Positions 16,628 to 64,000 of a DNA stretch of 64,000 nucleotides are shown here, in pieces. The notes under the pieces were generated by a model. That model was not told the origin of the DNA and ran no database searches. It saw nothing but the letters and a program-made list of their open reading frames with translations. The position numbers and the translations under genes were made by a program. The DNA comes from Parabacteroides hominis. GTDB taxonomy: Bacteria; Bacteroidota; Bacteroidia; Bacteroidales; Tannerellaceae. The DNA lies in the NCBI RefSeq assembly GCF_014287585.1, contig NZ_JACOOJ010000018.1, positions 34,895 through 98,894 of the forward strand. Reading direction: 5' to 3'. Within the stretch, counting starts at the first letter, position 1; each line of letters opens with the position of its first letter.

Positions 16628-17956
16628 TCACAATATCTTCTTCTGTAAAATACGGAACCAGACGAATGCGACGACTCCTTTCAGCATGCTGGAGATGCTG
16701 ATTGCCCACCAGACACCCGCCACACCCAGTCCCAGGGCTGTCAGCCCGATCGCCATCGGAATGCGCAGGCTGTTGAACGTGATACTGATGATGGCTGGCG
16801 GAATCGTACGGCCTGTTCCGTAGAACAATCCCTGCATCGTTATTTCCAACATCATGAACAACATGGAATAGCCGTCGATGCGAAGGAAAACGCCTCCTGC
16901 CTCATAAGCGGCCTTTTCGGGTATGATCAGAGAGAACACTTCGCTGCCGAAGAACACGAAAAGCAGCGTGCAGAAGATTCCGAACAGAGCCGTCATCCGG
17001 AGTGTCGTGTGGTAAGCGCCTAAGACACGTTCTTTTTTCCGGGCGGCATAGTTCTGCGCCACGAACGTACTCAAAGCCGTGCTGAATCCTTGTGAGGTGT
17101 TCCAGGCGATCGCTTCGATCTGTCCGCCGGCCGTCATCGTCATCAGCCCGATATGCCCGCCATAGGTGGATGCCGTGCGCGCCATCATCAGGTTGATAAC
17201 GGCAAACAAGCTGTTCAGCAACGCTACGGGAAGTCCCAACTGGAAGATTCGTTTGCTATAGCGACTTTTCAACCGGATGAGGAATGGAAATCCTCCGAAC
17301 AGCCGGTTTCTCTTTTTCAGATAGTAGATAAAAATGGCCAGCACGGTCGCCTCCGACAGCCAGGTCGCACAGGCTGCTCCATCCGTCCCCATCCCGAATC
17401 CGAATATAAATAGCGGATCGAGCACCATATTCATAATCAATCCGCTGCCGCTGACATAGAACGGGATTTTGCTCAGTCCTGCCGCGTTATAAATTCCTGT
17501 GCAGGCTGCCGACAGGAAAATGAGCGGAAACCCTGTCGCCACAATCCTGAGATAGGACACTGCATGGGCGGAAATATCCGTGTCGAGCTTGAAGAAACCG
17601 ATGACAGGATTTGCCAGTACGAACAGCAACAGGCCCCAGCAGATCGAGATAATCAAGGCAATCGTAAGGTTGTGGGAAGCAAAAGCGCGGGCGCCTTCTT
17701 CTTCACGTGCCCCGATACTTTGTGCCACGCTGACTTCCGCCCCTACCTTATTGAGGTAGGAGATCGAAGTCGTCATCCAGGTCAGGATCCCGACTGCCCC
17801 GATAGCGGCTACTGCTTCGCTACCTAAGCGTCCCACCCAAGCCATGTCGGTGATGCTGTAGGCCATTTGAATAAAAGAGGTCCCCATGATGGGAAGCGCC
17901 AGGTTGAATAGTTGTTTTTTAATAGGCCCTTCCGTCAGATTTTTTGTCCCTTGCAT
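16628..17956 (-). CDS. MATE family multidrug/cation exporter
   Basis: 442 residues from ATG at 17956 (MQGTKNLTEGPIKKQLFN); the longer open frame to 18055 has no family-like sequence and the -7 box at 17977-17984 favours the shorter start. About 12 hydrophobic segments in two halves, with MATE marks LALPIMGTSFIQMAYSITDM and MAWVGRLGSEAVAAIG. Sodium- or proton-coupled export across the inner membrane; substrate unknown. The invertible promoter at 18276-18306 currently faces this gene from about 300 bp away and might add read-through transcription. Confidence 0.92.
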   Translation of the reverse strand: MQGTKNLTEGPIKKQLFNLALPIMGTSFIQMAYSITDMAWVGRLGSEAVAAIGAVGILTWMTTSISYLNKVGAEVSVAQSIGAREEEGARAFASHNLTIALIISICWGLLLFVLANPVIGFFKLDTDISAHAVSYLRIVATGFPLIFLSAACTGIYNAAGLSKIPFYVSGSGLIMNMVLDPLFIFGFGMGTDGAACATWLSEATVLAIFIYYLKKRNRLFGGFPFLIRLKSRYSKRIFQLGLPVALLNSLFAVINLMMARTASTYGGHIGLMTMTAGGQIEAIAWNTSQGFSTALSTFVAQNYAARKKERVLGAYHTTLRMTALFGIFCTLLFVFFGSEVFSLIIPEKAAYEAGGVFLRIDGYSMLFMMLEITMQGLFYGTGRTIPPAIISITFNSLRIPMAIGLTALGLGVAGVWWAISISSMLKGVVAFVWFRILQKKIL

Positions 17957-17976
17957 GTTCGTTTCGTATTTGGCTG

Positions 17977-17984
17977 CAAAGATA
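17977..17984 (-). promoter_or_regulatory. -7 element of the MATE gene
   Basis: Minus strand TATCTTTG, about 20 bp before the ATG at 17956, giving a very short leader. Confidence 0.55.
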
Positions 17985-18236
17985 CCATTGTTTATGGAAA
18001 AAATAATTATACTCCCCTCAATCTGGTTATGACGAATGGGGTAATAGTTTACCATCAGTCGCTCCTAAAAAATAGCCTGATTTACCCCAAAATTACCCCT
18101 GTTTTTGCAAAATGCCCAAAATACGCCAAAACGCTATGCTCATTATCAGTATGTTAGCTTTTCAAAAAGTGGGTATAAAATAAGTCGTTTTAAGATGGTA
18201 AAACCCTGTATTGATGCGGGTTGTAGAGCTGTTTTG

Positions 18237-18274
18237 AAATGACTAATGAAAACGTACGTTTTTTTTAGTCATTT
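18237..18274 (+). repeat. Left inverted repeat of an invertible promoter (Mpi-type site)
   Basis: 38 bp, exactly reverse-complementary to 18402-18439. It contains AAACGTACGT, matching the site ARACGTWCGT recalled for the Bacteroides fragilis Mpi serine invertase. The repeat is itself palindromic apart from 2 bp per arm (AAATGACTAATGAAAACG against AAATGACTAAAAAAAACG). Confidence 0.88.
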
Positions 18275-18275
18275 G

Positions 18276-18306
18276 CAAAGTTATGATTTTGTCTATGATA
18301 ATCAAA
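18276..18306 (-). promoter_or_regulatory. Invertible promoter, currently pointing left (OFF for the adhesin operon)
   Basis: On the minus strand: TTTG (18306-18303), exactly 19 bp, then TAACTTTG (18283-18276), a full consensus Bacteroides promoter. It lies between the two inverted repeats, at the left end. No comparable promoter reads right. Inversion about the repeats would move it to 18370-18400 on the plus strand, with a start near 18407, some 78 nt before the ATG at 18485. In the present orientation it reads toward the MATE gene. Confidence 0.82.
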
Positions 18307-18401
18307 AAATATTGAAGATAATATTTGATATAAACCATTTATTTACAATGCTTACATGAAATTATCCAATTAAAGGTGTAAACCTTATAAAACCTCCCGA
18401 A

Positions 18402-18439
18402 AAATGACTAAAAAAAACGTACGTTTTCATTAGTCATTT
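18402..18439 (-). repeat. Right inverted repeat of the invertible promoter
   Basis: 38-bp perfect inverted copy of 18237-18274; the two enclose 127 bp (18275-18401). Flanking bases stop matching immediately, so the repeat is exactly 38 bp. Confidence 0.88.
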
Positions 18440-18484
18440 TATCAGAGGAAATTATTTCTAATATAAATTTCAAACATCAGGATC

Positions 18485-19291
18485 ATGGCAAAAAAAGTCA
18501 AACCAGGCAAACTCCGGGGCAACACGAACCCGAACAACCTAACAGCCGATGAAAACGATTATACGCTCAGTATAATCGGCGGCATGAGCTACGATTTGGA
18601 TCAGTTGGGGCAACTGGTCGTTCAGGACGGGACGACAACCGACTCCAAAGAACAAATCATCCGAAATTTCCGCCTTATTGCAGAAAAGGGTATCGAAATG
18701 GGATTGATGGGCAACAACATCAACTACGAGTACTTCCGCCTCGCGTTCGGCGTAAAAGGCGTCTTCAACTCTGCCAACGAAGCCTTTATGCGGCCTAAGC
18801 ACGAGGTCACCGCCTCGATGTCCGTAGGACCGGACGTAAGGAAGGCGATGGAAGAGACAATGGTGGAAAACATGGGGCCCGCCCAGCATTACGCCCAGAT
18901 GGACACTATCATCAACACCGTGAACGGCGAAGTAAACAAGAGTGTCACTTCCGCACAGGTGCTCGAAGTGAAAGGCGTTAACCTCCCGATCAAAGGCGAC
19001 GACCCCTCGGTCGGCATCTACCTTCAGCAGGTGGGCGAACCGGACAACACCCGCATCAAGGCTACCGTTATCCTGAACAATGAGCCGAAACGCCTGATGT
19101 TCATGGTTCCCGGAGGGTTGGTGATAAATGAGATGTACCAGTTGGTGCATATCACGCAGGCAAGCGCAAGCGGTAACACGACACAGTTGTTGAAATCGCC
19201 TCGCACAGCCTTTAGCAACACGCAGTTGAAATGCACCGACGGTACACTAATTCCCAATGGGGGAGAAGAGGAACGCCCAGGCGAATTATAA
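18485..19291 (+). CDS. HU-like DNA-binding/DUF4469-type protein
   Basis: 268 residues, no signal peptide, basic start MAKKVKPGKLRGN. Residues about 25-110 (IIRNFRLIAEKGIEMGLMG, FRLAFGVKGVFNSANEAF) resemble the divergent HU-type domain, and the rest (VKGVNLPIKGDDPSVGIYLQ, MFMVPGGLVINEMYQLVHI) the beta-rich DUF4469 domain, a combination common in Bacteroidales genes beside surface loci. Function unknown; predicted cytosolic and possibly nucleoid-associated. First gene behind the invertible promoter, 24 bp before a repeat-coded mini-ORF. Domain naming is from recall and moderately sure. Confidence 0.72.
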   Translation: MAKKVKPGKLRGNTNPNNLTADENDYTLSIIGGMSYDLDQLGQLVVQDGTTTDSKEQIIRNFRLIAEKGIEMGLMGNNINYEYFRLAFGVKGVFNSANEAFMRPKHEVTASMSVGPDVRKAMEETMVENMGPAQHYAQMDTIINTVNGEVNKSVTSAQVLEVKGVNLPIKGDDPSVGIYLQQVGEPDNTRIKATVILNNEPKRLMFMVPGGLVINEMYQLVHITQASASGNTTQLLKSPRTAFSNTQLKCTDGTLIPNGGEEERPGEL

Positions 19292-19314
19292 CTGCCTGTA
19301 GAGGTATCTTTTTA

Positions 19315-19458
19315 ATGGGTATATCCATCTGCCTAAGCATGGATATACCTATTAAGCTAAGCATGGATACCCCAATTCACCTAAGCATTGGTATACCTAT
19401 TCAAGTAAGGATTGATATACCTATTATTAAAAAACAAATTTATATCATACAAGAATAA
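19315..19458 (+). CDS. 47-residue leader ORF made of an 8-residue repeat
   Basis: ATG at 19315, stop TAA at 19456-19458 overlapping the next gene's ATG (TAATG). The core is four 8-residue repeats: ICLSMDIP, IKLSMDTP, IHLSIGIP, IQVRIDIP. The exact stop-start overlap suggests translational coupling: ribosomes finishing this ORF restart on the 899-residue protein. A real peptide product is uncertain; it could be only a coupling device. Confidence 0.5.
   Translation: MGISICLSMDIPIKLSMDTPIHLSIGIPIQVRIDIPIIKKQIYIIQE
19333..19428 (+). repeat. Four 24-bp tandem repeats
   Basis: Units begin CTAAGCAT at 19333, 19357 and 19381, and GTAAGGAT at 19405, with exact 24-bp spacing. A multiple of 3, so copy changes keep the leader ORF in frame. 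Confidence 0.8.
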
Positions 19459-22157
19459 TGAAAACAAACAACATCCAAACAATCCGTAAGGCAATGGCAC
19501 TTCTTTTCGCCATCGCTTTTTTTCATGCCAGCGCGGGGGCGCAAGGTACAAATAAACAACTTGACATTAATGATGGCTGTATTACGATTACCGATCAAGG
19601 GTATAAACAAGGTGACGATATTGATATAACCCCGTATACCGGTGCTTATACCATAATTCAAACGGATGCTGATAACAGTACCAGTGATTCGATCCAAATA
19701 CTGAGTAGCCCTGCAGGTGGTACTGATATCACATTGGAAGGGGTGAATATTAAGATTGAGGAAGAAAGATTATCCCCTATTTCTTTATCTGCTGGTACAA
19801 CAGTGAATTTGACGTTGGGAAACAAGGAGAATAAACTGATTTCTGATGCTCCTGGAGTGCGTGTCCGGCCGGGTGCGACTCTGACGGTCAAAGGAAATGG
19901 AAAATTGAATATTAAAGGTCTAAGTAATGGTGGAGCTTGTATTGGTGGAGATAGGGATGAGACCTGTGGCAAAGTAACGGTTGAGAGCGGGACTTTATTG
20001 CTTCAGTCTAATGGATATGGAGCTGGTATCGGAGTCGGCAATGGAGCAAATGCAAAAAATGCAGGTGAAATAACCATCAACGGCGGTTACGTTGAAGTGA
20101 AAGGATATGATATAGGGGGAGCTGCCGGTATCGGTGGCGGCGGTAACGGTTCTAATAACGGAGGCTATGGTGGTACGATCACGATCAACGGAGGGACCGT
20201 GATTGCTGAAGGTTCAGGCGAGGGTGCCGGTATTGGTGGCGGAAACGCTGGTGATGGCGGAATAATAACCATTACCGGAGGTAAAGTGGTGGCTACCGGA
20301 GGTGAGTTTTATAGTTCAGCCGGTTCCGGCATTGGCTTTGGTGGTAGGGGCGGCAGCACTGCAACGATAACTATAACCGGAGGAGTGGTGACGGCCACAG
20401 GGAAAGGAAGTATGAAGGGCATAAACGGAACGGCTACGATAACCGGCGATCCTGTTATTTTTGCAAACAGTATAGATCAAACCAATAAAAATGCTTGGGA
20501 GGGTATTATTGTAGAGGGTAATACTGGACAGGTCTATGGAGACCAGACTCTCACGTCTAACTTCAAGATCGGTAAAGATACGACACTGACAATTCCTGCG
20601 GGAACGACTTTAACGCTGAATACGGGGGTCTACCTGACTAATATCGGTACGCTTAAGAATGACGGGACATTGACTAATGCTGGGACGATCCGGACTGCTG
20701 GGACGATAAGCGAGAGAGATAAGCTGACAGGTACGATAATAGATCTGGTGCTTTTAGAGAACAATATGGTAGAGGCAATAGATGATCAGACCTATACCGG
20801 CTCAGTGATCGAACCGGCGATTACTCTTAATTCGTATACGGAAATTACGGATTATACCTTTGCGTACAGTGACAACACCAATGCGGGAACAGGGAAGGTT
20901 ACAGTTACTCCGTCCGAATTGGGTGCATTGTATGGGGATCCGGTAGAGGTAACCTTCAACATCAACCCGGCAGGACTGACTGTTACTCCGAAGTCCGGTC
21001 AAGTCCTTTATAGAGGAGAGCCGGTACTTTACGATTATACGGGAGCAATAGGAGGGGATACTCCTTCGTTGACGGGTGCACTGGCTTTGACGGATGGCGG
21101 TAGCGGCACTTGGACAATAGAGATGGGAACGCTTGCTTCGGATGACAATAACTATACGCCAGTGTTGAATCTTGCGGGTGTTACTTTCACCTATATCGAT
21201 CAAGATCCCGCATCGGTGGATGTTACTTTGACTCCGGACGGTAATGACGGTTGGCATAAGAGCGAGATTACCTTTAAGGCTGATAATTTCGAAGCAGCTC
21301 TGACCGGAAGCTCCGACTTGAAGTCTACGCCTGCCTATGGTGAAAGTTTTGTTTGGGACACCGATGGCAGCTACACCCTCACCTATAACTTGCGTCGCAC
21401 GACGACACAGGTCGTGTATGGAAAGACGGCAAACGTGAAGCTCGACAAGACAGCCCCGATACTTACCGCCCAGGTCAACAATCTGGCGTACACTCTCACT
21501 TTCAGTGATGCAACCAGCGGTGTCAAGACATTGAAAGTCGATGGAGATGTTATTCCTCTTGTACCCGGCGCAACTACCTATAGCAGTACTGGTTCCTCTG
21601 GCACGCATACCGCTGTCGTCACCGACGTGGCTGGTAACCAGACGAGCATCCCGCTGGTGTTGAGGGCTTACGTCCCGCCGGTTACCACTTACTACACCGT
21701 CACTCTACCTTCAGTGAAAGGCGTGACGCTTAGTAAACGTCCCGGTGACTACACGGTCGAAGAGGGCTACAACTTCACTTTCACTCTGACGCTCGATGCT
21801 GGGTATGACCTTTCCGTCCCGAAAGTCACGACCAGCCGTGGCGAGACGCTTGAAGCGGATGCCAACGGTCGCTATCGCATCAGCAACGTAGAGGAAGACA
21901 TTACCGTCTCTATCACCGGTATTGTCCTGAACGAGGACCCGACAGCAAATGCGGAGATCGAAGGAGATATATGGGTGAGAGCAGCCGGTTCTACCTTATA
22001 TATATACACTCCGAAAGAAGAAAGGGTTTCTGTTTATACTCTCACCGGATATCTGCTGAAGCAACAACGGGTGACGGGAAGTGCGGAGATCGGAATGCCG
22101 GCTGGGTTGTATATGGTCCGAGTGGCGGACAAGGTGTATAAAGTGGTGATACGGTAA
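19458..22157 (+). CDS. Large secreted repeat-rich surface protein (adhesin-like), phase-variable
   Basis: 899 residues. Signal peptide to about residue 29 (ALLFAIAFFHASAGAQ). Residues about 120-330 hold Gly-rich units such as ITINGGTVIAEGSGEGAGIG repeated about six times, a likely beta-helix. Then a DQTYTGSVIEPAI domain of the kind in large surface adhesins, an Ig-like domain with LDKTAPIL and VTDVAGNQTS (about 670-740), and a YTVTLPSVKGVTLSK module. The C-terminus (VSVYTLTGYLLKQQRVTGSA...GLYMVRVADKVYKVVIR) resembles type IX sorting domains. Function inferred as surface adhesion; ligand unknown. Expression probably follows promoter inversion. Confidence 0.8.
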   Translation: MKTNNIQTIRKAMALLFAIAFFHASAGAQGTNKQLDINDGCITITDQGYKQGDDIDITPYTGAYTIIQTDADNSTSDSIQILSSPAGGTDITLEGVNIKIEEERLSPISLSAGTTVNLTLGNKENKLISDAPGVRVRPGATLTVKGNGKLNIKGLSNGGACIGGDRDETCGKVTVESGTLLLQSNGYGAGIGVGNGANAKNAGEITINGGYVEVKGYDIGGAAGIGGGGNGSNNGGYGGTITINGGTVIAEGSGEGAGIGGGNAGDGGIITITGGKVVATGGEFYSSAGSGIGFGGRGGSTATITITGGVVTATGKGSMKGINGTATITGDPVIFANSIDQTNKNAWEGIIVEGNTGQVYGDQTLTSNFKIGKDTTLTIPAGTTLTLNTGVYLTNIGTLKNDGTLTNAGTIRTAGTISERDKLTGTIIDLVLLENNMVEAIDDQTYTGSVIEPAITLNSYTEITDYTFAYSDNTNAGTGKVTVTPSELGALYGDPVEVTFNINPAGLTVTPKSGQVLYRGEPVLYDYTGAIGGDTPSLTGALALTDGGSGTWTIEMGTLASDDNNYTPVLNLAGVTFTYIDQDPASVDVTLTPDGNDGWHKSEITFKADNFEAALTGSSDLKSTPAYGESFVWDTDGSYTLTYNLRRTTTQVVYGKTANVKLDKTAPILTAQVNNLAYTLTFSDATSGVKTLKVDGDVIPLVPGATTYSSTGSSGTHTAVVTDVAGNQTSIPLVLRAYVPPVTTYYTVTLPSVKGVTLSKRPGDYTVEEGYNFTFTLTLDAGYDLSVPKVTTSRGETLEADANGRYRISNVEEDITVSITGIVLNEDPTANAEIEGDIWVRAAGSTLYIYTPKEERVSVYTLTGYLLKQQRVTGSAEIGMPAGLYMVRVADKVYKVVIR

Positions 22158-22213
22158 TTGTCTTGTTTCCGCATCAGGTGCGGGAACAGGGATTATTATT
22201 AAGACGCATAAAA

Positions 22214-22264
22214 CAAAGCCGGATTCCTGAATGGGATTAAAACCCACGAAGGAATCCGGCTTTG
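22214..22264. terminator. Bidirectional terminator between the adhesin and barrel genes
   Basis: Perfect 15-bp stem: CAAAGCCGGATTCCT (22214-22228) and AGGAATCCGGCTTTG (22250-22264), followed by CTATTTTATT. The flanks (GCATCAGGTGCGGGAACAGG at about 22174 and CAGGCGGCAAAAGAGAG at about 22291) also occur in the element near 63.2 kb. Confidence 0.8.
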
Positions 22265-22319
22265 CTATTTTATTAATCCGGCTGTTTCAGCAGGCGGCAA
22301 AAGAGAGCCAATGGCTTTA

Positions 22320-52136: not shown

Positions 52137-52260
52137 GAAATTGCCGAATTAAATCAGCACTTTTTCTGTGAAATTGCCGAATTAAATCAGCACTTTTTCT
52201 GTGAAATTGCCGAATTAAATCAGCACTTTTTCTGTGAAATTGCCGAATTAAATCAGCACT
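52137..52260 (+). repeat. 33-bp tandem repeat, four copies
   Basis: Units start at 52137, 52170, 52203 and 52236 (the last truncated at 25 bp) and are identical, beginning GAAATTGCCGAATTAAATCA. A related single unit (GTCGAATTAAATCAGC) lies near 51835. Unspaced, so not CRISPR. The frame codes EIAELNQHFFC repeats, probably not a protein. Confidence 0.88.
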
Positions 52261-62795: not shown

Positions 62796-63439
62796 CTGTT
62801 ACTTTTGGCTTGATCCAAAAGTAACCAAAAGATCAAGGCCGAACCTGCTTCGCTACTCCGTTCCCTTCGTTCGCTGTCGCGTCTGAAACTCGCTTCGCTT
62901 GGGACAGCAGACGCTCCGGTCGCTCACTGCGGTCTCTGCGCTTAACGCTCACCAGCTTAGGCCGGAAATAGAGCCTGACGGCTCTTTGGGGATGGCCGAT
63001 ACCGCCTGCTCCTTTGCAATTCAATTGAGACAAGCCTCATGCCGCAGGTTTCTTTTGCCGTTTGCTTCAGCAGACGGATAGATGATTGTGTTCCGGCTTT
63101 GCCGGTTCCTCTGTGGGTTTTTAACCCCTTTAAATGTAATCTATGAAAGGGGTTAAAACCCACAAAGGAAGAGGCTTTGCCTCCAGGCTTTTTAAACCGT
63201 CTGCTGAAGCAGACGGCAAAAGAGAGGCGGATGGGGCTTTGGGGGGTTGCCGATACCGTCTGTTTCTTTGCGATCCCGCATCAAGTGCGGGAACAGGCTT
63301 GTCCCCGTGCTTGACACGGGGTCGCAGAAGAACCGGCGGTATCGGCAATCCCAAGAGAAAGCGTAGCCTTTGCCCGGAGTAGACCGGACGGTTAAGCCTT
63401 GATCTTTTGGTTACTTTTGGATCAAGCCAAAAGTAACAG
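62796..63439. mobile_element. 644-bp non-coding element with 44-bp perfect terminal inverted repeats
   Basis: Ends 62796-62839 and 63396-63439 are exact reverse complements. Each end itself folds (TTACTTTTGG-CTTGAT-CCAAAAGTAA). Inside are further nested palindromes, for example around TTTAACCCCTTT / AAAGGGGTTAAA (63119-63155) and TGCTTCAGCAGACGG / CCGTCTGCTGAAGCA (63065 and 63198), and a repeated phrase TGCCGATACCGTCTGTTTCT (63249) resembling 62995. Only spurious frames occur. Looks like a MITE-like or other dispersed palindromic element; no target duplication seen. Confidence 0.65.
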
Positions 63440-63736: not shown

Positions 63737-64000
63737 TTATTTTACAATTGCTTTGACAGCTTCTTCGCCTTCGACAGCTACTACGACTACACCCTGGGGA
63801 GCAGCGATTACAGCGTTGTCAGAAGCGATTACTGTGTTGGCTACTACCTGGCCTAAGATGTTGCTGATAACAACTTTCTTACCGGCAGCGTTAGCGATCG
63901 TTACCTGGCCTTCGCCTGCGATAACGGCTACTTCAGATGTTGCGATTGTTTCGTTGTCTGTTGCAATTACATCGTCTGCAGAAACTTCAAGAACGTTTAC
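63737..64000 (-). CDS. DUF6383-type C-terminal domain of a secreted protein (partial)
   Basis: The last 87 residues and stop. The sequence VTIANAAGKKVVISNILGQV then NAVIAAPQGVVVVAVEGEEA and KAIVK matches the C-terminal domain recalled as DUF6383, widespread in Parabacteroides and Bacteroides surface proteins and related in design to type IX sorting domains. The rest lies outside the window, so the function is open. Codon use is strongly biased, with few codons per amino acid, suggesting high expression. Confidence 0.75.
   Translation of the reverse strand, partial: VNVLEVSADDVIATDNETIATSEVAVIAGEGQVTIANAAGKKVVISNILGQVVANTVIASDNAVIAAPQGVVVVAVEGEEAVKAIVK

Follow-up and report, generated by a model that had tools for sequence, protein, structure and literature searches.

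A Predicted Mpi-Type Invertible Promoter and Its HU-DUF4469 Surface-Protein Cassette in Parabacteroides hominis

Introduction

The invertible promoters of Bacteroides fragilis are controlled by the invertase Mpi (Coyne, 2003, cited in PMC4747536 and PMC8375218). A 64,000-nucleotide stretch of the Parabacteroides hominis genome (positions 34,895-98,894 of the forward strand of contig NZ_JACOOJ010000018.1; hereafter the window, with position 1 as its first letter) carries a 203-bp element of similar appearance in front of a gene for an HU-like protein with a DUF4469 domain and a second gene for a protein of 899 residues. Does this element invert, which recombinase would turn it, and what would be switched? 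An original prediction, made from the window alone, described it as a Mpi-type promoter switch caught in the OFF orientation. Here we follow that description through the genus Parabacteroides.

Anatomy of the Element

The element is bounded by two 38-bp recombination sites, the left at 18237-18274 (plus strand) and the right at 18402-18439 (plus strand), which enclose an invertible spacer of 127 bp (18275-18401, no strand assigned). As predicted, the two arms are perfect reverse complements of one another (38/38), and the DNA between them holds a single promoter match that reads leftward, TTTG-N19-TAACTTTG (18276-18306, minus strand; TTTGATTATCATAGACAAAATCATAACTTTG as read from 18306 to 18276), whose -7 box lies one base from the left arm. 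The plus strand of the spacer gave no promoter match. The promoter thus faces away from the HU-DUF4469 operon, and relative to that operon the OFF orientation is upheld.

Each site is near-palindromic around the core ACGTACGT, and an identical site is found at loci L053, L056, and L065 of related genomes. Within the window AAACGTACGT occurs four times, always inside the two arms (0.12 expected; 0/100 dinucleotide shuffles with four). A pattern scan of viral contigs for the site returned 0 matches and so gives no sign that it is phage-borne. A transcription terminator or a chance repeat is ruled out by the 38/38 identity of the arms together with the recurrence of the site. Exact inverted repeats of at least 20 bp with arms less than 600 bp apart occur twice in the window, the switch being one of them. 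The other has perfect 44-bp arms (62796-62839 and 63396-63439, 556 bp apart) with hairpin-like non-coding DNA between them, adjoins a gene that by eye is glutamine synthetase-like, and looks like a MITE-like or other repeat element.

The core had been fitted to a B. fragilis site given as ARACGTWCGT. That form was not found in the literature searched; the consensus printed for the B. fragilis Mpi site is ARACGTTCGTN (PMC8375218), from which ACGTACGT is one base off, just as AAACGTACGT differs by one base from the printed core ARACGTTCGT. Both core forms, the window type and the TTCG type, are present in the relatives G013 and G016. Sites with the ACGTACGT core are without polarity because their central dinucleotide, TA, is self-complementary (TT in the printed B. 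fragilis site), and with a palindromic core the sites alone do not decide between inversion and excision.

The Cassette and Its Chromosomal Place

The first gene of the operon (18485-19291, plus strand) encodes a protein of 268 amino acids in which Pfam finds both of the expected domains, HU-DNA_bdg (PF14848) and DUF4469 (PF14734). Its relatives are 82% identical in P. acidifaciens strain 426-9 (G001) and 63% identical in a Parabacteroides metagenome-assembled genome (MAG; L002). A 24-bp tandem palindromic repeat array of approximately five units follows between the two genes (19315-19434, plus strand; TRF 19333-19426, period 24, 3.9 copies), and the second gene (19458-22157, plus strand) encodes the 899-residue putative secreted surface protein.

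How did this unit come to lie here? A block of 4.3 kb that comprises the switch and both genes (17993-22318, no strand assigned; limits taken from the alignment to G016) is absent from the junction between a MATE transporter gene and an outer-membrane-protein gene in 10/10 other genomes (G001, G002, G010, G013, G014, G015, G016, G020, G021, and G022). The two flanking genes adjoin in all ten, although in G022 they are separated by about 0.9 kb of other DNA. P. acidifaciens carries its HU-DUF4469 gene at another place, together with a surface protein that is 45% identical, and the sequence immediately to the left of the switch is similar there as well. In the MAG a different site, GACTAGAAAAAAGGAAC, stands before the HU-DUF4469 gene, and the promoter again reads left. 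Since the cassette is found at other places in relatives, the unit seems to move as a whole, and on these genome comparisons it would behave as a self-contained phase-variable cassette that occupies different chromosomal places in different species. Neither a flanking duplication nor a transposase was noticed round the block on casual inspection.

Promoter Reach and the Left Neighbor

Inversion had been predicted to place the promoter 78 nt before the HU-DUF4469 gene. Counted from the end of the -7 box to the ATG the distance is 84 nt, and the lower figure holds if the count begins at a transcription start some 6-7 nt past the end of the box. No other promoter is visible for the operon, again as predicted: between 18201 and the beginning of the second gene, no TAnnTTTG box was found on the plus strand.

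As sequenced, the promoter points at the MATE-family transporter gene (16628-18055, minus strand), a neighbor absent from the original prediction. Could the element be a two-way switch, in which the OFF-orientation promoter drives the MATE gene so that two payloads alternate in place of ON and OFF? The geometry is in its favor, the longest MATE reading frame starting 182 bp past the left arm, and three other HU-DUF4469 switches likewise face a divergent neighbor. The MATE gene, however, owns a -7 box, TATCTTTG at 17984-17977 (by eye with no -33 TTTG), and a TAnnTTTG box is present at that place also in G001, G013, G015, and G016, four relatives without the cassette there. The cassette is moreover a later insertion at this junction, and the left neighbor differs elsewhere, being ApbE in P. 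acidifaciens (through an inferred contig link) and another in the MAG. We consider the two-way arrangement unlikely and read the element as an ON/OFF switch of the HU-DUF4469 operon.

Sites and Invertase in Related Genomes

Which enzyme would act on these sites? The invertase was predicted to be outside the window, and with four Parabacteroides recombinases as tblastn queries no serine recombinase was found within it, the best match having E = 0.40. Action in trans also fits P. acidifaciens, in which no ACGTACGT site occurs in the 15 kb round mpi. Exact copies of the 38-bp site stand at promoter switches in three other Parabacteroides genomes (both arms in G013, one arm each in G015 and G016), where the payloads are DUF6383 (S-layer-like) proteins and a polysaccharide locus. 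Among the 38 genus genomes scanned, copies of AAACGTACGTTT number 22 in G001, 16 in G013, 13 in G016, nine in G015, and two in G022, and the other 33 genomes hold 0 or 1 each. A 1000-residue TPR-like protein encoded beside the cassette locus is 97-98% identical in G013, G016, G001, and G015 and 92% identical in G022, and the window is accordingly placed among these Parabacteroides.

The invertase follows the same division. Where AAACGTACGTTT sites are paired, in five genomes, the best Mpi orthologue has 91-100% identity to the G001 protein, which itself scores 321.9 bits against NF009949, the "master DNA invertase Mpi family" (cut-off 272); in the remaining 33 genomes identity is at most 81%, and three of these are without a match. 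The co-occurrence of paired sites and Mpi clade gives a Fisher p of 2e-6, a value drawn from related species that are not independent and confounded with kinship. The Mpi-type reading is thus backed by identical sites at other switches, by a Mpi above the NCBIfam cut-off, by clade co-occurrence, and by the inverted orthologous switches described below.

The switch might instead be real but worked by a recombinase other than the Mpi orthologue. In P. acidifaciens PF00239 matches five serine recombinases; apart from mpi, three of them hit the Mpi model with scores under its cut-off. Other site families in the genus go with other presumed recombinases. Against this, the sites are tracked by the Mpi clade (with Mpi as the query) and lie one base from the printed B. 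fragilis Mpi site, and we hold another recombinase to be improbable; the Mpi orthologue is the enzyme assumed in what follows.

What else do such sites control? In loci fetched round sites only, with distances of 150-200 sought, there are 28 distinct site pairs, window included, spaced 163-186 bp. They serve 23 DUF6383-type surface proteins as payload, along with three polysaccharide loci, a single PAS-histidine kinase, and, in the window, the HU-DUF4469 operon. Among the 23, the DUF6383 domain was found by Pfam in four (L049, L053, L075, and L083), and the others were assigned by the shared end AVKAI(V/I)(K/R) or, for two whose ends lie beyond the fetched stretch, by the start MNKKFSTL. Pfam was likewise applied to one polysaccharide locus (L048), whose first protein is shared, by sight, by L056 and L060. 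The original prediction had set the window's payload, which is not a capsule locus, against the capsule loci for which such switches are known, but the contrast softens when 23 of the 28 fetched pairs precede DUF6383-type proteins. The switch before the PAS-histidine kinase (L054:7054-7257 in G013) has TTCG cores, is 71.8% identical over 209 bp to the spacer and arms of the window, and may be an invertible promoter that serves a sensor kinase. At the far end of the window itself (63737-64000, minus strand) lies the C-terminal end of a protein, VVVVAVEGEEAVKAIVK, like those of the DUF6383-type proteins at the Mpi-type switches of relatives; the promoter of this gene is outside the window.

Evidence for Inversion

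Orthologous switches in different genomes offer a view of both orientations. When G013 L050 is compared with G016 L062, the flanks align on the plus strand and the 207-bp middle aligns on the minus strand, at 86%; the two spacers are 41% identical as they lie and 82% identical with one turned. The spacers of L048 and L060 are 50% identical as they lie and 73% when turned. In the other two orthologous pairs the orientation is shared, with identities of 79% and 97% before any turning. Of the four orthologous switches compared, two are therefore opposite between two genomes, which means that such sites invert. In P. acidifaciens the orthologous switch is apparently split between the ends of two contigs, C73 and C102, with both breaks falling precisely on an arm's inner edge (the link rests on arms identical at 37/38 and a left flank of 71% identity). 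In the same assembly 10 of the 22 sites are less than 60 bp or so from where a contig stops, as is expected if reads carry both orientations, and short repeats could add to the number.

The window segment thus very probably flips, by which a two-gene surface-protein cassette would be switched on and off. A fossil or static inverted repeat that inverts no more, be it a locked promoter or an extended leader hairpin, would account for the one orientation seen in the window strain, but it is highly improbable beside arms identical at 38/38, a site exactly identical across species, and orthologous switches inverted between genomes.

The ON state is nearly unseen in assemblies. Of the 23 DUF6383 pairs 22 are OFF and one is ON, 16 of the 17 HU-DUF4469 switches considered below are OFF, and this excess fits a rare ON state. 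The polysaccharide switches are OFF at L048, OFF at L056, and ON at L060, the last two being read from the -7 box alone, with no full promoter match.

Proposed Working of the Switch

With high confidence, we read the 203-bp element as a Mpi-type invertible promoter that would be served by a Mpi orthologue in trans, OFF as sequenced and ON when turned. The serine invertase, encoded elsewhere, would recombine the two 38-bp sites, the likeliest crossover point being the TA in the middle of ACGTACGT, and the 127-bp spacer would be turned round. In the sequenced orientation the leftward promoter would leave the operon of HU-DUF4469 gene, repeat array, and 899-residue protein gene OFF. After inversion transcription would start inside the right arm, approximately 78 nt upstream of the HU-DUF4469 start codon, which would turn the operon ON. 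That inversion is the usual outcome, rather than loss of the segment, would come from the synapse, which sets the same preference in known serine invertases. We infer that both inversion and expression would take place in the window strain through its own Mpi.

HU-DUF4469 Loci With Predicted Switches Across the Genus

DUF4469 gives 229 matches in 28 of the 38 genus genomes, and in the wider order the domain is found in 9/119 genomes drawn, G001 included. From the matches listed, 80 of the 229 were taken by score and genome, a non-random choice from 25 genomes, and these were joined by the window, L001, and L002. Of the resulting 83 loci, five with less than 250 bp upstream or without an ATG start were dropped from the switch count. 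With a switch defined as an inverted repeat of at least 14 bp and at least 90% identity round a promoter, invertible-promoter architecture is present at 17 of 78 HU-DUF4469 loci, compared with 0/1560 dinucleotide shuffles, and the other 61 are without a switch by those criteria. Control genes in the same stretches (an earlier pass) scored in four of 160 cases, each of them a HU-DUF4469 switch seen from its divergent neighbor. The 17 switches are not independent, because L168, L172, and L190, from three related genomes, seem to represent a single orthologue. Sixteen face away from their gene, and the single ON switch, facing its gene, is L203 (G010).

The sites at these 17 switches are, by eye, of four kinds: that of the window, ACGTACGT; GACTAGAAAAAA with a variable core (n = 4); AGTTC...GAACT with close variants (n = 8); and CCTTATTT...AAATAAGG (n = 4). 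Switches are also more frequent where the next gene has the same C-terminal tail, by a profile built from the window, L001, and L002: 9/24 such loci are switched versus 6/52 others (Fisher p = 0.013, with the window and L002 left out and with loci that are not independent).

Repeat Arrays Behind DUF4469 Genes

The array of the window is diverged (TRF, 76% matches), and its spacing recurs behind DUF4469 genes elsewhere. Taking the leading period from the autocorrelation of 150 nt at lags 8-40, a period of 23 or 24 directly behind the DUF4469 stop was obtained in 80/83 loci (23 in 67, 24 in 13) versus 26/300 control windows downstream of other genes in those stretches (23 in nine, 24 in 17). On average the autocorrelation reaches 0.47 at lag 23 and 0.44 at lag 46; the remaining 15 lags printed give 0.23-0.29. 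With both strands counted, some 6-mer is present at least four times in 61/83 loci versus 38/4150 shuffles and 7/300 control windows, and in many arrays the half-sites alternate at 10/13, 11/12, or 9/14. The stretches form stable hairpins: among the 58 loci at which another reading frame starts 60-260 nt behind the stop, a hairpin z below -4 was found at 24/28 loci with the tail and 23/30 other DUF4469 loci, versus 11/70 control gaps; the value for the window array is -3.55. In other genera of the order at least five of 14 DUF4469 loci have the same spacing (L223, L231, L227, L233, and L234) and others are without it. Elsewhere in the window, a 33-bp tandem repeat of 3.8 copies with 100% matches lies at 52137-52260.

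Period is kept between loci, and sequence is locus-specific. The idea that the HU-DUF4469 sequence dictates the array sequence was largely rejected (Spearman 0.09 for 3321 pairs of 82 proteins). Proteins that are 95-96% identical have arrays with no 7-mers in common (L144/L152) or few (L155/L160), and the 14 protein pairs of at least 90% identity share more array 7-mers on average.

What might the arrays do? We tentatively suggest that the HU-DUF4469 gene and its 3' palindromic arrays of 23/24 bp could form a new regulatory module of Parabacteroides surface operons, one that controls the cargo after promoter choice. The HU-like protein would recognize the array by shape and spacing in place of sequence, and the two would set how much cargo is made; the invertible promoter, of whichever recombinase is at hand, would decide whether the operon is transcribed, and cassette, switch, and array would travel together. 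Among open-license papers none was found on DUF4469, nor any on HU-like proteins with palindromic tandem repeats in Parabacteroides.

The 899-Residue Protein

The second gene had been taken to encode a surface protein and adhesin. The reading frame stands, as does a Pfam match to Beta_helix_3; "surface" and "adhesin" are deduced from the architecture. A single-family Pfam name for the protein was set aside, only Beta_helix_3 passing, and no DUF6383 domain was found in it. The AlphaFold2 model (mean pLDDT 84.1, pTM 0.53) comprises a signal-peptide-like N-terminal helix, a beta-solenoid, an Ig-like region, and a C-terminal domain; with these two scores, the single domains can be trusted and their arrangement cannot. 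A Foldseek search with the whole model named no relative, the best TM by query length being 0.16 among the matches listed.

The C-terminal domain (residues 740-899) is common to 228/1040 candidate proteins at E <= 0.001. Against the T9SS sorting tail model TIGR04183 the 899-residue protein scores 16.7 bits, whereas the cut-off is 23; a match at E <= 0.01 was obtained for 20 of the 27 proteins aligned, that of the window included, and T9SS tails are present in 6/6 genomes searched. The domain is, from these profile matches, likely a T9SS sorting tail, with a score below the cut-off.

Relation to Known Systems

The switch is of the known Mpi kind, with a one-base variant of the core. As in the B. 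fragilis Mpi promoters, the promoter lies between inverted repeats, has a -7 box of the form TAnnTTTG, and would be one of many sites for one serine invertase. Unlike those promoters, its core is ACGTACGT and not ARACGTTCGT, hence palindromic, its arms are 38 bp, and its payload is a HU-DUF4469 gene with a beta-solenoid protein in place of a capsule. Parabacteroides distasonis has phase-variable S-layer glycoproteins (Fletcher, 2007, cited in PMC8400631 and PMC10773633), which share with our locus the genus and a surface protein as payload, and this S-layer glycoprotein family probably includes the DUF6383 genes that follow the identical 38-bp site in relatives. The window payload differs in being without the DUF6383 tail and in being preceded by HU-DUF4469 and a repeat array.

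The capsule of Bacteroides intestinalis is under invertible promoters of 183-186 bp whose transcription start was mapped inside the proximal repeat (PMC8375218), where the start is also predicted in the window, but there the repeat is one of 10 bp, GTTCGTTTAA, and the payload a capsule. In resistance operons on integrative elements, invertible promoters have gained new payloads several times (PMC8748976). Their promoter consensus is the same (-33 TTTG, -7 TANNTTTGY), whereas they carry a different cargo and have the invertase gene alongside. No description of the payload of HU-DUF4469, array, and surface protein, of its repeated capture by different sites, or of the 23/24-bp arrays was found in the literature searched, and the cassette looks new.

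Biological Implications

That sites and invertase clade occur together suggests that the specificity of an invertase can be read from genomes, and the arrays give the little-studied DUF4469 family a concrete, testable partner. Operons of one type with recombination sites of four kinds suggest that capture has recurred and that bet-hedged expression is selected for. A surface-protein cassette of this sort would thereby be added to the set of things that gut Bacteroidales switch by DNA inversion.
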